Below, in pieces: positions 5,985 through 13,295 of a DNA stretch of 47,541 nucleotides. Below the pieces are notes generated by a model. That model was given only the letters and a program-made list of their open reading frames with translations. It did no database searches and had not been told where the DNA came from. Where the stretch lies: contig JALSPW010000102.1 of the NCBI GenBank assembly GCA_026985735.1, positions 1 through 47,541 on the forward strand, given 5' to 3'. Origin of the DNA: Saprospiraceae bacterium (lineage in GTDB: Bacteria; Bacteroidota; Bacteroidia; Chitinophagales; Saprospiraceae). Position 1 is the first letter of the stretch, and every line of letters begins with the position of its first letter. Both the position numbers and the translations under genes were made by a program.

Positions 5985-7264
5985 TTATATGGATTTGTTC
6001 TAAATATTATAGTAAACACATTTATATTAAATAATGTTGCAGATAGCAACATTAATATAGCCGATATATTTAAAAGATATTCTTTATTTAAAAGTAATCC
6101 GGCAAAAATCAATATTAACATCGATATATATAGGTAAAACTGAATATGGCCGGTTTTTTTATAGTATAATTGCTCAGGTTTCGGAACTTTCCTTTTCCCA
6201 AGATGCTTTTGATATTTATATAGCCAAACGATAAATGGTAATGTTTTATATGTAATACCAAGAATTAAGTTTATATAAACTCCAAATAATATTGAGAAAA
6301 TATAAAAAATTGCTATTTCAGAAAAGAAATAATTATAATCAAGATTTTCAGAAAAGAATATTAAGATAGAAAAAATTATCGGTACGATTAAAAAGATAAA
6401 TGCTGTTAGCACATGTTTCATCGCTATATCAAGCTTTTTCTTTTTGAATTTAAATGATTGATAAATATAACTAATGTATATAAAGATTCCTATAATTACA
6501 AAAAGCCATGAGAGGAAATTCAAAATTTCTGTTTCATAAACTTGATAGCTTATCCAGGCACTAATAATGCCGGCATTTATAAAAGAATATATATATTTTA
6601 ATTTTTCTTTATTTACATATCTATGTGATATTAAAAACATCGGGATGATAATAGAAGAAATACCTATAATCAATAATAATAACCAACCCGCTAAACCGAA
6701 AATAATATGGATTTTTAAATATTTTAATATATCTAAACCGAGAAAGGAATATTTGAAATTGTATGCTTGTAATAATCCGTAAATAGTAGTTAAAAATAAC
6801 CATAATAATGAAGTTAATATGAATGTTATTGCTATGTCATGCTTTTTTGCTTTTAAATATGTTGCTAGGATATTGAAAATAAATATCCAAATAGAAATTG
6901 CTACCATAGAAGCTGCAATAATCAAATAATTAAAGTAACTATTTGTGTAAAATGATATAATAAAAAAGGTCAAACTGAAAATGAATATAAAAAAATTTCG
7001 AAATGCAAGTTTTTCAAATCTAAGGTTTGTATTGAATACCACCGGAACAAATTGGTGTAAAGTTCCCATTGTCATCATGGTTATAATCCCCAGGGTTGCG
7101 ATATGAGTCAAAGCAATTATCTTTGGTTGTAAGTATACAAGTTCATGCTTGTCATTTACAAAGAAAAAGAAAATTCCAAATATCAAAAATGATAGAGAAG
7201 AACCTGCAAAATACGGTACTACAGTTAATGGAGTAGGGGCCTTTTTTGTAGTGATGCCTATCAT
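5981..7264 (-). CDS. COX1/NnrS-like polytopic membrane protein (paralog 1)
   Basis: About 12 hydrophobic helices with ALTHIATLG and KIHIIFGLAGW histidine motifs; paralogous to 7261..8547; ATGA overlap with DUF59 gene. Confidence 0.75.
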   Translation of the reverse strand: MIGITTKKAPTPLTVVPYFAGSSLSFLIFGIFFFFVNDKHELVYLQPKIIALTHIATLGIITMMTMGTLHQFVPVVFNTNLRFEKLAFRNFFIFIFSLTFFIISFYTNSYFNYLIIAASMVAISIWIFIFNILATYLKAKKHDIAITFILTSLLWLFLTTIYGLLQAYNFKYSFLGLDILKYLKIHIIFGLAGWLLLLIIGISSIIIPMFLISHRYVNKEKLKYIYSFINAGIISAWISYQVYETEILNFLSWLFVIIGIFIYISYIYQSFKFKKKKLDIAMKHVLTAFIFLIVPIIFSILIFFSENLDYNYFFSEIAIFYIFSILFGVYINLILGITYKTLPFIVWLYKYQKHLGKRKVPKPEQLYYKKTGHIQFYLYISMLILIFAGLLLNKEYLLNISAILMLLSATLFNINVFTIIFRTNPYK

Positions 7265-8547
7265 TTGTTAAAAATCACTTCTTTTTTGCCAAATATAATT
7301 TTAAACATATTAAAATTATATATAATAGCTGTAATTATCATTAGTATTGCTCCTGCTTGAACGAGGTAAATAATATTTAACAAAAGCCCTGCCAGTAATG
7401 CAATTAGCATAGTATTATAAATATAAAATTGAATATCGGCAAGTTTTTCATTATATAATTCTCTTGGAAACGGAGTTTTTGCCTTTCCTACATATTTTTG
7501 ATATCTGTGAAGCCATATAATAAATGGAATAGTTTTGTAGGTTTGTCCCAATATCATGTTTGTATAGAAACCGAAAAAAATAGAAATCCCATATAATAAA
7601 ATAATATGTTTTAATCCGGGAAATTGATAATCAGGTAATAATAATATTAAAGATGAAAAAATTAATGGAAGTACTAATATGACAAATGCAAGCATAGTGT
7701 GTTTCATCCCGATATCCAATTTTCTTAATTTGTTTTTATAAGAGTCATAAATATATGAAATGTATTGTGCTATGGCAATTAAAATAAGAATCCAAAAAAC
7801 AGGTAAAAAATTTGACCCGTTGAAAAATTGCCAATCCAGATACAACAATACCAAACCTGAATTTAGTAACCAATATGTTCGTACAAGTTTTTTATCATCG
7901 AGTTTGTGGGATACTAAAAACATAGGGACCAAGGTTATTGCAACACCCATTATTAATTGTAGAAACCAACCTATCATACCAAAATGCGCATGAATTTTTA
8001 AATATCTGAAATTTGAATTATCCAGGAAGTTGTATTTATAATTGTATGCCATTAAAAGACCATATAAACTGGTCATCATTAACCAAAAAATAGCGGTAAT
8101 AATAAATCTTGCCGATATATCTTTTTTATTGGCTGTTTGGTATGATTTAATAATATTAATGGCAAATAACCATACGGAAACAAATATCAGAATGGAAGTA
8201 TATGGCATCAATTGCAATAGTTTTGAATACCAAAATGAATAGGAAAACAATGAAATGCTGATAACAAATAACCAAAAATTGAAAATGGCCAGTTTTTCAC
8301 TATATAGTTTGGTTTCAAAAACTACCGGTATCAATTGATAAAGTGATCCTATGATAATCATAGTTCCCCAACTTAACGCTGTTATATGGGTAATAGCTAA
8401 TATTTTTGGTGTATAAAAACTTAAAATAAAATTATCACTAGATATAAAAATCAATATCGAAAGTATCATAAATGCAATGGATGCAGCTATGAAATGAGGT
8501 ACTACCACCTGTTGTGAAGGAGATCTCTCTGTACTTAATCCTGTCAT
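7261..8547 (-). CDS. COX1/NnrS-like polytopic membrane protein (paralog 2)
   Basis: About 12 hydrophobic helices with AITHITALSWG, KIHAHFGMIGW and GMKH motifs; ATGA overlaps at both ends. Confidence 0.75.
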   Translation of the reverse strand: MTGLSTERSPSQQVVVPHFIAASIAFMILSILIFISSDNFILSFYTPKILAITHITALSWGTMIIIGSLYQLIPVVFETKLYSEKLAIFNFWLFVISISLFSYSFWYSKLLQLMPYTSILIFVSVWLFAINIIKSYQTANKKDISARFIITAIFWLMMTSLYGLLMAYNYKYNFLDNSNFRYLKIHAHFGMIGWFLQLIMGVAITLVPMFLVSHKLDDKKLVRTYWLLNSGLVLLYLDWQFFNGSNFLPVFWILILIAIAQYISYIYDSYKNKLRKLDIGMKHTMLAFVILVLPLIFSSLILLLPDYQFPGLKHIILLYGISIFFGFYTNMILGQTYKTIPFIIWLHRYQKYVGKAKTPFPRELYNEKLADIQFYIYNTMLIALLAGLLLNIIYLVQAGAILMIITAIIYNFNMFKIIFGKKEVIFNK

Positions 8548-9353
8548 TTTTTATAAATAATTAATTTTGTGTTAGCTTCGTTAATTTTATTACCTACCAG
8601 ATTGTAACCCCTTTCTGTCAATTCCTTTAATAAAAACTGTGGGATTCTTTTATGGTGAACATATAATGCACTTCCTTCAGGCATGGTCTCAATTTCCTGA
8701 AGTATTGTAACCATTGGGAGGGGCATTTCCAGATTCCTAACATCGATTTCTTTTATCTTGTCTTGGTAATCGGAATATATTTTTTCAAACAATTCCTTGT
8801 CGTCTTCAACTATATCTTCCGGTAAACCATCTGCATTGGTTTTTCCTCCAATTTTGGTAAAATAAGTGTATACCAAATCATTTTTCCTCTCTACTTTAAA
8901 TGCATAACCTTTTTCAGATAAAATCTTAATCATTGGAAGTGGCTCAAAACTGTTGATTATTTTTAGAACTTTGTTCTCCGGTAATTTCTTGATTGCAGAC
9001 ATTATTGATTTAAAAGGATCAATGCCTTTCTCCAAATCTATCCGTGCATCCAATTCTATGATTTCTTTATTGGTAAAATAGTCTTTATCTTTTTTTGTCT
9101 CACTTATTTTATCGGCATTTTTGTCTTTTTTCTCTATTTTAAAACCTATGGATGATAATCTGTCAAAAAGAATATCAATATCAATTCCTCCAATTTTTGC
9201 CGCATCAGCTATTGTTACTCTCGGAGCTAAAACTTTTCTTAAAATCGGATTTTTTAATTTCTTAAAATGTTTGTTTATAGTTGCTATTACATCTATAACA
9301 TCTTTGTTTTCCTTTATAATATCCGATATTTTTGTTTGTGCATTTATTTTCAT
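8544..9353 (-). CDS. DUF1858-like N-terminus plus two DUF2249-like repeats
   Basis: KNPILRKVLAPRVTIADAAKIGGID (DUF1858/ScdA_N-like); two copies of a [FM]xPLPM[IV][KT]IL...KxRGY/EKGY unit (DUF2249-like). Confidence 0.75.
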   Translation of the reverse strand: MKINAQTKISDIIKENKDVIDVIATINKHFKKLKNPILRKVLAPRVTIADAAKIGGIDIDILFDRLSSIGFKIEKKDKNADKISETKKDKDYFTNKEIIELDARIDLEKGIDPFKSIMSAIKKLPENKVLKIINSFEPLPMIKILSEKGYAFKVERKNDLVYTYFTKIGGKTNADGLPEDIVEDDKELFEKIYSDYQDKIKEIDVRNLEMPLPMVTILQEIETMPEGSALYVHHKRIPQFLLKELTERGYNLVGNKINEANTKLIIYKK

Positions 9354-9476: not shown

Positions 9477-9508
9477 GCCTGCCCGAAATTCTTTTATTCC
9501 AGACAGGC
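9477..9508 (-). terminator. Rho-independent terminator
   Basis: Minus strand GCCTGTCTGGAA-TAAAAGAA-TTTCGGGCAGGC (12 pairs including GU) followed by a T-rich tract; downstream of 9536..10453. Confidence 0.85.
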
Positions 9509-9535
9509 GCTCCCATTTACATAAATCTTTATTGT

Positions 9536-10453
9536 TTACAAATTGTCCAATATGGATTTTATTTCTTCTATTCGTTTTTTACTTACATCAACTTTAATTA
9601 AATCACCATTATTAAAACTAGCATATTTCATACCAAAAAATGCCTGGCCATTGGCATTATCTGAAATGACAATTATATTTGCTTCAGTTTCAGGTATTTT
9701 AACATTATAAGGAAGTTCAAACACTTTTAATTCACCGTCCCAATACATTTCTATATTCGTATTTAATTTTGGAATAGATATTTGAACAATTGAATTGTCA
9801 ACATCAAATCCGTCAGGAAGTGAGACTCTGATTTTTTCAATTTTAGCATTTTCTGTTATTGCTTGTCCAATACAGAAAATTCCTTGCCTATCCGTAGTGA
9901 AAATATATCCTTTTTGAATAATAGGATCTTCACCGGATGTTATTTCCCATGAACTTTTAGTTAAAATGTCATTTTCATAAGCACTTTTACTCCACCCTTT
10001 TGAAGTCAATCGAAAAATACTTGGGACTTTTAAATCATTATAAGGAATTTTGAATCTAATTGGAATTCCTTTTTTAAGTGCTATATCATTCCCTTTGGTA
10101 TCCGAAAGTTCAAATTCAATTATATTTGAGTTCTTAATAAGTTTTCGGTTTTCACTTTCCATTGAAATTCTGTTAGCCACCAGTTTTCCAATTGTGTTTA
10201 TTTGTTTAAGTGAAAAATTTATTGTATCATTATTTTCAAAAAAATCATCATTTAATTCAACAATCAGGCCTTTGGAAAAGGTTTTAACATGATTTCCACT
10301 AACCGAGAATATGGCTTTTTCTTTTTTATCCTGCAACTGTGCCAAATAACTTATAGTATCATTTTTATAAGGATAAAAAACTTCATATTCCTCGACACAG
10401 GAATTAAATAATACAATAACCAGAGCTGTGTAAAAAAGTTTTTTCATATACAA
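9536..10453 (-). CDS. Hypothetical lipoprotein
   Basis: MKKLFYTALVIVLFNSC lipobox; last gene of the sigma/anti-sigma operon. Confidence 0.8.
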   Translation of the reverse strand: MYMKKLFYTALVIVLFNSCVEEYEVFYPYKNDTISYLAQLQDKKEKAIFSVSGNHVKTFSKGLIVELNDDFFENNDTINFSLKQINTIGKLVANRISMESENRKLIKNSNIIEFELSDTKGNDIALKKGIPIRFKIPYNDLKVPSIFRLTSKGWSKSAYENDILTKSSWEITSGEDPIIQKGYIFTTDRQGIFCIGQAITENAKIEKIRVSLPDGFDVDNSIVQISIPKLNTNIEMYWDGELKVFELPYNVKIPETEANIIVISDNANGQAFFGMKYASFNNGDLIKVDVSKKRIEEIKSILDNL

Positions 10454-10474
10454 TGCGTTTTCTGTAATTTCATA

Positions 10475-11842
10475 TTAATTAAAAAAATATCTTGGCCCCA
10501 AAGAAATTCCGAATTTTGTAAATTTCTGAGTTAAGGGGTAATTATTATTTGTAAATGGTTTTAAGAAATATCTAAACTTAGGTTCAGCAAAAAGTTCAAT
10601 ATTCCTGTTTATCCTATATCCAAAATATGCACTTGTGTAAATCGAAATCCCTAAATTTTTATTGAAAATATCTGGATTGTCGGATTGTTTATTAAAACTT
10701 ACTACTTCACCGTTCATATTCAACATGGTACCTTTTTGATAAGTTAAAATATTTAAAACTATACCTGCATTTATTCCTATATTAAAATCATTATGTTTAA
10801 ATTGATATCCAAAAATAACAGGAATATCAATCATGCTGTAATTATTTATTTTTTGAATATCTTCTTTGCCGTATATTTCTTTAATTGTCGTGTCTCTTGA
10901 AATTTGATATGTTCCGTCGGTGTTCCAAATTGTATCAATAGTAATAATAGTTTGAGTGTTTTTAACGTCTTTTATTACAATATGGAATTTTTCATTTATT
11001 GTAGTGAAATTCAATCCGGTTTTGATCAAAATGTTTTTATTGAACTTATATCCGGCCATTATTCCTCCCGAATATGATAATAATGCACTTTCACTGGACA
11101 ATCTGGAATTTATATATTCAGGTTTTGTGCCGGTAAGACTCTTTTTTGCGTAATCGGGGGAAAGATATAAATCCATAAACCATCTGTTTGCCCCATCTGA
11201 AAAACAATCATTTAAGATACCGTGTTGAGGTTTTATAGTAGGATTAAAAATTCTATTATTTAAAAGAAGATATTCTGTTTTTGACGATTTTAAAACTATT
11301 GGCTTTGAAAAGTTGTCATATTTTTTTATACCGGTGGTATTTTTATGAATATTTGATGTTTTTGATAATTGATTTTGAAAAATATTTTTATGTTCAATAT
11401 TTTCCTGATTCAATATTGTTCGGAGATATTTGGATGATTTTGGTTGATAAGAAGTTGTGTGATTATTATTGAAATTTATATTTGAATTAAGTATTTTATC
11501 GTAACCGGAAAATATATCCGGGGTATTTTGTTTTGTTGAACTTTTGACGGGGTTAATGTGATTATAAGATTTTGTGGAATTTTTATTTATCTCCTTGGAA
11601 ACTTTAGCAATAACTTTGCTGTTTTGGTTTGAATTCTCTTTAGAATTGGTACGGGACTTCAATAGGACAAAGCCTAATCCAAGGATAAATGCAATTCCTG
11701 TTGCGGTAATAAAATATATAAGAAACCGTTTAATTCTTTGTCGTTTTATCAGGGCTTCAGATACATTTTTCCATACTTTGTCTGAAGTTTGGATTTCAAT
11801 ATTATGAAGTTTTTCCTTAAATATTTTTTCAAAATTATCCAT
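10475..11842 (-). CDS. Putative dual-membrane-spanning anti-sigma factor (N-terminal cytoplasmic segment, one TM, low-complexity linker, C-terminal outer-membrane beta-barrel)
   Basis: N-terminal soluble segment, TM FLIYFITATGIAFILGLGFVLL, N/S/K/T-rich linker, PorT-like beta strands ending GISLGPRYFFN; overlaps the ECF sigma gene by 8 bp. Confidence 0.75.
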   Translation of the reverse strand: MDNFEKIFKEKLHNIEIQTSDKVWKNVSEALIKRQRIKRFLIYFITATGIAFILGLGFVLLKSRTNSKENSNQNSKVIAKVSKEINKNSTKSYNHINPVKSSTKQNTPDIFSGYDKILNSNINFNNNHTTSYQPKSSKYLRTILNQENIEHKNIFQNQLSKTSNIHKNTTGIKKYDNFSKPIVLKSSKTEYLLLNNRIFNPTIKPQHGILNDCFSDGANRWFMDLYLSPDYAKKSLTGTKPEYINSRLSSESALLSYSGGIMAGYKFNKNILIKTGLNFTTINEKFHIVIKDVKNTQTIITIDTIWNTDGTYQISRDTTIKEIYGKEDIQKINNYSMIDIPVIFGYQFKHNDFNIGINAGIVLNILTYQKGTMLNMNGEVVSFNKQSDNPDIFNKNLGISIYTSAYFGYRINRNIELFAEPKFRYFLKPFTNNNYPLTQKFTKFGISLGPRYFFN

Positions 11843-12371
11843 TGTGTGAATATAATTCGATTATTAATTTTTTTAACATATTTTTTGCTTTTGCCAATTG
11901 AGATCTGGAAGAACTTTCGGCAATTTTTAACATTTGTCCTATTTCTTTATGACTATATCCTTCTATAACATACATATTGAATACTGTCCGGTATCCAACG
12001 GGTAATTGTGTTAATAAATTTAAAAGTTCATCAGACGACATACCGGATATAGCATCTTGATTTTTATCATATAAATTATATATAGTTTTTATGTCTTCAG
12101 TATACAATTTCTTTTTCTTTTTTATATATTTTAATGCAACATTAATCATTATTTTTCTAATCCATCCCTCAAAAGAACCTTCATGTTTATAATTTTTTAA
12201 TTTTGAAAAAATCAAAATAAATCCTTCCTGCATGACATCTTCTGCATCCTGATTATTTCCTGTATACCGGAAACACAATGCTTTCATAGAATTTTTATAC
12301 TTGTCAAATAAAGCTTTTTGACTCTTTATGTCATTTTTCAGACTTGCGGAAATCAATTCTTTATCTGTCAA
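11835..12371 (-). CDS. RNA polymerase ECF-type sigma-70 factor
   Basis: ALCFRYTGNNQDAEDVMQEGFILIFSKLKNYKHEGSFEGWIRKIMINVALKYIKK (region 2) and LPVGYRTVFNMYVIEGYSHKEIGQMLKIAESSSRSQLAKAK (region 4). Confidence 0.95.
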   Translation of the reverse strand: MTDKELISASLKNDIKSQKALFDKYKNSMKALCFRYTGNNQDAEDVMQEGFILIFSKLKNYKHEGSFEGWIRKIMINVALKYIKKKKKLYTEDIKTIYNLYDKNQDAISGMSSDELLNLLTQLPVGYRTVFNMYVIEGYSHKEIGQMLKIAESSSRSQLAKAKNMLKKLIIELYSHNG

Positions 12372-12407
12372 AACAATCGTTTTAGTTTTTCCGGAAGCAA
12401 TTTATAT

Positions 12408-12439
12408 TATATAGAGACTTATTATTATGGATTCGTTGC
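12408..12439 (-). promoter_or_regulatory. Candidate ECF promoter of the sigma/anti-sigma operon
   Basis: Minus strand GCAAC-N16-GTCTCTATATA, about 40 nt upstream of the sigma start codon. Confidence 0.45.
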
Positions 12440-12467
12440 CTGCCGGAAGTTAAATTAATTAATTTTT

Positions 12468-13295
12468 TTAATCTTTATTTTTTATATTTCCTTTTTTTGT
12501 TTCATCGTTATTATTTTCTTCCACTATGTCCGCATCATCAATAAGGGGATTTCCATCATTGTCACGATCTTCAAATCCATCAATATCAGGCATTTCTTTT
12601 TTTGAGACGGTTTTATTTTTTGTTATTTTTGGAGTTGGGTTGTCCGAATATTCTCCTGATGTAAATTTATCAGCTTTATCAAAAAAATCAGATTTATCAT
12701 CAAGTTCGGAATCTTTTAAATCTATTGGAGAATCTGCAAAATCATCTTTATTATCTTCTGCTTGTTTTGTTTTTGCATATTCTTCTGCTTTTTTGATTGT
12801 CTCATCTATTTTTTCTCCAAGATTCTTAGTTATTTCTGAAGCTTTGTTATATATGGTTTTTCCGCCTTCGATAATTTTACCTCCGATTACTTCTGATGTC
12901 TCTTTGAATTTGTCGGCGGCTTCTTTTCCCGGACCATCTATAAATTCTTTTGCTTCTTCAATAAATTTGTCTCCGGTATCAGCAATAATATCTCCCGCTT
13001 TTTCAATTGCTTCGGTAGATTTTTTAAAGACTTTACTATCTGTAATATTATCAATAATTTCTTTCGATTTTTCAGTTATATTATTTACTACCTGATTGCT
13101 TTTTTCATTCGTTTGTGTTTTTATTTCATCAAATTTTTTATTCAAATCATCTTTTTGAGTTTCAAAAAAATCTTCAGAAGTTTCCAGTAAATGTTCACCT
13201 TTTTCTTTTGTATAATCAATCGTTTTTTTTGCAGCTGATTTAGTAATCGATTTTGAACCGAAAATCAGTTTTTTAATATCATTAAATATTCCCAT
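12468..13295 (-). CDS. Hypothetical amphipathic-helix (YtxH/LEA/apolipoprotein-like) protein with acidic tail
   Basis: Charged amphipathic repeats with Lys/Glu/Asp/Thr periodicity; tail DIDGFEDRDNDGNPLIDDADIVEENNND. Confidence 0.7.
   Translation of the reverse strand: MGIFNDIKKLIFGSKSITKSAAKKTIDYTKEKGEHLLETSEDFFETQKDDLNKKFDEIKTQTNEKSNQVVNNITEKSKEIIDNITDSKVFKKSTEAIEKAGDIIADTGDKFIEEAKEFIDGPGKEAADKFKETSEVIGGKIIEGGKTIYNKASEITKNLGEKIDETIKKAEEYAKTKQAEDNKDDFADSPIDLKDSELDDKSDFFDKADKFTSGEYSDNPTPKITKNKTVSKKEMPDIDGFEDRDNDGNPLIDDADIVEENNNDETKKGNIKNKD

Follow-up and report, generated by a model that had tools for sequence, protein, structure and literature searches.

The question raised by this locus is what a bacterium of the Saprospiraceae does with an ECF sigma factor gene that overlaps the gene of a putative envelope-spanning protein, and what part the lipoprotein encoded by the third gene plays in the same system. 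The locus lies in a stretch of 47,541 nucleotides (contig JALSPW010000102.1), here called the window, from a draft genome of 3.08 Mb. We refer to the middle protein as Dma, after the family to which it is assigned below, and to the product of the third gene as LIP. The features of the locus are as follows.

12468..13295, minus strand: apolipoprotein/YtxH-like amphipathic protein of 275 aa, 5′ of the sigma gene, with a conserved acidic DGDGNxxIDDA tail; associated by linkage
12412..12440, minus strand: predicted autoregulated ECF promoter, GGCAACG-N18-TCTA (−35 GGCAAC, −10 TCTA), 41–69 nt 5′ of the sigma start
11835..12371, minus strand: ECF sigma factor of 178 aa, TTG start (Pfam Sigma70_r2, 3e-15, and Sigma70_r4_2, 5e-13; NCBIfam sigma70-ECF, 6e-26)
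10475..11842, minus strand: Dma-family middle protein of 455 aa (AlphaFold2 model; hhalign to Bacteroidaceae Dma; synteny)
11723..11842, minus strand: residues 1–40 of Dma, predicted cytoplasmic sigma-binding segment (helices 2–13 and the start of 21–65; conserved D5, L12 and W24)
11654..11722, minus strand: residues 41–63, inner-membrane helix (hydropathy 2.19 over 19 residues; AlphaFold2 helix 21–65)
11195..11641, minus strand: residues 68–216, disordered periplasmic tether (most residues with pLDDT < 50; 53% N/S/K/T)
11204..11206, minus strand: codon of Cys213, the only Cys of the window Dma protein, seven residues ahead of where the barrel's first strand begins
10484..11185, minus strand: residues 220–453, predicted 8-strand outer-membrane beta-barrel (AlphaFold2 pLDDT mostly above 90; Foldseek)
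9536..10447, minus strand: LIP lipoprotein of 303 aa, ATG start (lipobox VLFNSC, Cys17; leave-one-out HMM; AlphaFold2)
9477..9508, minus strand: intrinsic terminator at the operon end, a 13-pair stem followed by a TTTTTTT tail

A preliminary description of this DNA had placed an ECF sigma gene at 12371–11835 on the minus strand, overlapping the middle ORF by 8 bp, with a lipoprotein gene third and a strong terminator after it. This layout holds: the sigma ORF matches both Pfam sigma regions, the overlap is seen at 11835–11842 and the terminator at 9508–9477, and a minor correction concerns the start of the lipoprotein gene, which is placed at 10447. The TTG start codon of the sigma gene aligns with the GTG, TTG or ATG codons at which the sigma genes of relatives begin. 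These relatives were fetched with Dma as the query and are mostly MAGs of Saprospiraceae and Chitinophagaceae; of the 44 loci with DNA on that side, 43 have the sigma gene immediately 5′ of Dma. Because the pair recurs in dozens of genomes, its arrangement is not a matter of chance. Just 3′ of the terminator, on the minus strand at 7261–9353, a COX1-like multi-pass membrane protein and a DUF1858/DUF2249/TusA-like protein are encoded in tandem. Homologues of the amphipathic protein at 12468–13295 lie beside sigma at five loci (L002, L004, L131, L144 and L156) and beside a separated LIP gene at two (L100 and L103).

RseA and FecR are single-pass inner-membrane anti-sigma factors encoded next to their ECF sigma, and the window protein resembles them in its single inner-membrane pass and its adjoining ECF sigma gene. 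To our knowledge, RseA and FecR have periplasmic domains only, lacking both a long tether and an outer-membrane barrel. One could nevertheless envision that the window protein is an ordinary single-membrane anti-sigma factor whose barrel is cut off or not in the outer membrane, and that LIP is a neighbour with no functional tie to it. The result that the window protein alone gave no Pfam domain above cut-off (barrel E 0.44) fits this explanation. The AlphaFold2 model of 10475..11842, a check that the preliminary description had itself suggested and that we ran on a 40-sequence alignment, argues against it: the C-terminal barrel is confidently modelled, with pLDDT > 90, and its Foldseek matches are OmpA-like, the top one being the OmpA barrel (E 1.8e-7). 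Matches to Pfam OMP_b-brl or OMP_b-brl_2 were also obtained in 10–11 of 25 Dma relatives (E up to 1; best 6e-7). Together with the promoter copies of LIP genes that lie far from dma, as described below, these results make the single-membrane explanation highly improbable. The remaining anatomy agrees with what had been described earlier, namely a soluble N-terminal segment (a helix pair in the model), a single TM helix (the sole strongly hydrophobic segment of the ORF, at about 41–63) and a long N/S/K/T-rich linker, which is modelled as disordered. The claim of a C-terminal barrel ending in aromatic residues is supported by the model for the barrel but does not hold for its end, where the final residue is Asn (..RYFFN).

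The membership of the pair in the Dma family was examined by profile comparison. When the alignment of window-family Dmas was compared by hhalign with an alignment of Bacteroidaceae Dmas, which includes dma2-type loci picked out by their DUF4943/DUF4858 neighbours, the match was 98.7% with an E value of 4e-16. A profile built from window-type Dmas retrieved Dma loci of Bacteroidaceae-like genomes, one of which contains a sigma-Dma fusion resembling the published Dma3; the neighbours in these genomes are NigD, DUF4943 and DUF4858 genes, and it is because of them that the genomes were taken as Bacteroidaceae. NigD and DUF4943/DUF4858 are neighbours or targets in published Dma/EcfO systems, DUF4943 and DUF4858 being neighbours of dma2 (PMC13088901). 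Members of the Dma family adjoin an ECF sigma of group ECF21, and their loss causes hypervesiculation. The window sigma, a candidate for that group, matched the sigma factors of Bacteroidaceae Dma loci at 1e-25 to 1e-49, and those of dma2-type loci at about 1e-34. On the basis of the hhalign result and these sigma matches, we assign the pair to Dma: by homology it is a Dma-family sigma/anti-sigma pair of known type from a Saprospiraceae genome, with predicted sigma binding. The earlier proposal of a Dma-related envelope stress sensor is thus supported both by the barrel model and by homology to Dmas encoded beside NigD and DUF4943/DUF4858 genes. The window's genome also contains two further, divergent sigma-Dma pairs, L090 (G000:C100), which has the gene of a 579-aa lipoprotein 5′ of sigma, and L091 (G000:C316).

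Among the closest published systems is Dma2-Das2 of Bacteroides thetaiotaomicron (BT_1558/BT_1559), encoded in an operon of three genes, the last of which rises strongly in expression on dma2 deletion (PMC13088901). The two loci share an adjacent ECF sigma, a cytoplasmic N-terminal segment, one TM helix, a disordered tether, a C-terminal barrel and the number of genes. They differ in the third gene, which encodes a DUF4943 protein in B. thetaiotaomicron and a member of the unrelated LIP family in the window, in their source (a gut Bacteroides as opposed to an environmental member of the Saprospiraceae), and in the solitary Cys that precedes the barrel in the window protein. In EcfO-Reo of Phocaeicola vulgatus and B. 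fragilis, the anti-sigma factor is likewise predicted to cross the envelope and to carry an outer-membrane barrel, and it is thought to sense outer-membrane stress, and the regulon includes surface lipoproteins, NigD (PMC9308784, PMC13114119). The lipoprotein genes there are those of NigD and not of LIP, and the LIP and NigD profiles align over the signal peptide alone. Dma1-Das1 of B. thetaiotaomicron (PNAS 2024, as described in PMC13088901) has the same architecture as the window pair and acts through a NigD protein, nigD1 (bt_4005), which is needed for hypervesiculation; that target is of another family, and its locus number suggests another place in the genome.

A cysteine at the barrel start, usually the only one, is a conserved property of the window-type proteins. 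All 40 aligned Dma homologues contain at least one Cys, and 34 of them have a single one. The last Cys falls 237–258 residues from the C-terminus in 39 of the 40, a position that corresponds to the start of the barrel. Most Dmas of other Bacteroidia families lack it, as do several Saprospiraceae Dma paralogues with the alternative gene order. Pairing of Cys213 with LIP was considered, but some LIPs have no second cysteine (for example, at L129), and a general Dma-LIP disulfide is therefore unlikely.

With the pair assigned, the question is what the third gene contributes. The members of the LIP family were recovered by leave-one-out HMM searches at E values of 1e-28 to 1e-67. Among 46 loci that were collected with Dma alone and that had enough DNA downstream, LIP is immediately 3′ of sigma-dma in 25 and further along in 3, so that the conserved synteny of the lipoprotein, a check named in the preliminary description, extends to about half of the loci. 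Culturable relatives with all three genes include a Segetibacter strain (L150) and Deminuibacter soli (L155). Neither the window protein nor its relatives matched a Pfam family, and no solved structural relative was found. The AlphaFold2 model of LIP is all-beta with a C-terminal helix (pLDDT 89), and Foldseek searches of the PDB with this model gave no convincing match, the best being SpyCEP (E 5e-4), followed by weak matches to AnkG and DUF4876. Two known families were tried and rejected. As a NigD protein, LIP gave no NigD_N or NigD_C Pfam match, and the hhalign alignment covers just 32 signal-peptide columns; DUF4943 (PF16301) was matched neither in the window protein nor in its family, nor anywhere in the window's own genome. 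The surface-export signal (LES) described by Lauber et al. (PMC5080379) consists of C-x-K-(D/E)2-x after the lipid-bearing Cys. The post-lipobox consensus of the LIP family, C-Q-K-D-x-D, with K at +3 in 21 of 28 members, is close to it, whereas the window LIP has CVEEYE, with the acidic residues and without the lysine; surface exposure is therefore less sure for the window protein than for its relatives.

Lipoproteins and secreted proteins of other kinds accompany sigma-Dma pairs elsewhere. A lipoprotein of 449–649 aa is encoded 5′ of sigma in 5 of the 46 Dma-collected loci. In a second architecture (L094–L099, L106, L124, L125, L127, L128 and L133), a lipoprotein of about 450–1090 aa is encoded immediately 5′ of sigma-Dma; these long proteins have CarboxypepD_reg domains where scanned and show partial similarity to LIP. 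In other Bacteroidia families (L157–L161, L163, L164, L166, L170 and L181), the gene after sigma-Dma often encodes a secreted protein of about 460–500 aa, one of which bears a T9SS sorting tail; several sigma genes of this set are also preceded by the element GGCARCR-N18-TCT, which is described next.

This element was identified by a dyad search of sigma upstream regions, in which GGCAGC together with a second block at a fixed distance occurred in 10 sequences, compared with at most 3 in shuffles. It is present 5′ of sigma in 27 of 41 regions, of LIP in 21 of 28, of Dma in 0 of 45 and of other ORFs in 1 of 485, counts that are not independent events because the loci are related. Since the LIP upstream regions had not been used in motif discovery, they provide an independent test of the element, and its enrichment there is strong (Fisher 2e-30). 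Spacings other than 18 gave essentially no matches. The window contains a single exact match (12440–12412), where 0.06 is expected. In five of five genomes in which a close LIP homologue lies apart from sigma-dma (L100, L103, L120, L122 and L143), in some of them kilobases away, the LIP gene has its own copy; this is the observation that argues against LIP being an unrelated neighbour. Remoter LIP-like genes (L092, L104, L105 and L107–L109) have no copy upstream. A search of four whole genomes (32 Mb) with the strict element gave 30 matches, compared with 9 for the control. The matches that avoid coding frames and lie no more than 150 nt from a start preceded sigma in 4 of 4 genomes and LIP in 4 of 4, with a spurious frame running across one of the LIP matches. 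Two other genes, encoding an FG-GAP protein and a small outer-membrane barrel, had such a match in one genome each.

No copy of the element precedes the window LIP gene, which is only 28 nt away from dma; transcription from the sigma promoter presumably continues into it. The regulon of the window's genome is not readable by motif, given 7 matches compared with 10 for a reversed control. An intergenic copy of the element, some 190 nt ahead of a PorP/SprF gene in that genome (L192, G000:C297:6842), offers a lead but could be due to chance.

Could the element instead be the operator of another regulator, with sigma-dma and lip merely co-regulated? Its absence from 14 of 41 sigma and 7 of 28 lip upstream regions would be in keeping with such a regulator. 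A two-block element of fixed spacing shortly 5′ of the start, with TCTA as the second block, is however the typical form of an ECF promoter, and the element tracks the sigma gene across families. We think that this alternative is very unlikely.

We consider it likely that the locus encodes a Dma-type outer-membrane stress switch that drives GGCARCR-N18-TCT promoters, with LIP as its main conserved output besides itself. The course that we infer, from the binding of sigma through the signal and the release to the function of LIP, is as follows. In the resting state, the 455-aa protein would keep the ECF sigma at the inner membrane by its N-terminal segment in the cytoplasm; the disordered tether of about 150 residues would span the periplasm, with the 8-strand barrel anchored in the outer membrane. 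Perturbation of the barrel, or of the outer membrane itself, would free sigma, which would then transcribe its own sigma-dma operon from GGCARCR-N18-TCT, providing both amplification and reset, as well as LIP, in the window as the co-transcribed third gene. LIP would act as an effector that modifies the cell surface or shields it, a role that NigD appears to have for EcfO/Das1 in gut Bacteroidales. Of the conserved outputs of sigma, LIP is most probably the main one, and the counterpart of NigD in those organisms. The published Dma2, EcfO-Reo and NigD data agree with this reading (PMC13088901, PMC9308784, PMC13114119).

The lipoprotein had been put forward as a candidate modulator or target of the sensor. 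The promoter element shared by sigma and LIP favours the target; a feedback role is less likely. In one such role, LIP would be, instead of or besides an output, a sensor or brake that contacts the Dma barrel from inside the outer membrane or from its surface and reports the status of the envelope or of lipoprotein export, so that its accumulation shuts the switch off. The conserved operon with Dma and the common promoter would suit a feedback regulator no less than an effector, and the conserved C-terminal helix and the QKDxD signal of the family are compatible with it. The divergence of LIP correlates with that of the Dma barrel beyond that of sigma, but this partial correlation (r 0.75) is confounded by species history. 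In addition, no vesiculation phenotype was seen for the third gene in the published work on dma2 (PMC13088901), and adjacent LIP is missing at about half of the loci. We regard the feedback role as unlikely. A related scenario, which we regard as quite unlikely, is that LIP is both product and ligand of the Dma barrel: as a surface lipoprotein it would engage the barrel, and the switch would monitor how well the outer membrane exports or displays lipoproteins and close on the arrival of LIP, with the near-solitary Cys at the barrel mouth as a second, redox or disulfide-tether input. If this were true, Dma systems would be modular, each coupled to a particular family of lipoproteins (LIP, NigD or DUF4943).

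In two families of environmental Bacteroidota, the switch is linked here to a family of lipoproteins and to a predicted promoter. As far as the literature shows, neither the LIP family nor the promoter element nor the solitary Cys has been described before. The GGCARCR-N18-TCT element is a ready reporter promoter, and Cys213 and the GGCARC and TCT blocks are simple targets for mutation. We offer the hypothesis that each Dma pair drives its own lipoprotein, which would bear on what triggers Dma proteins and on the roles of their conserved targets.
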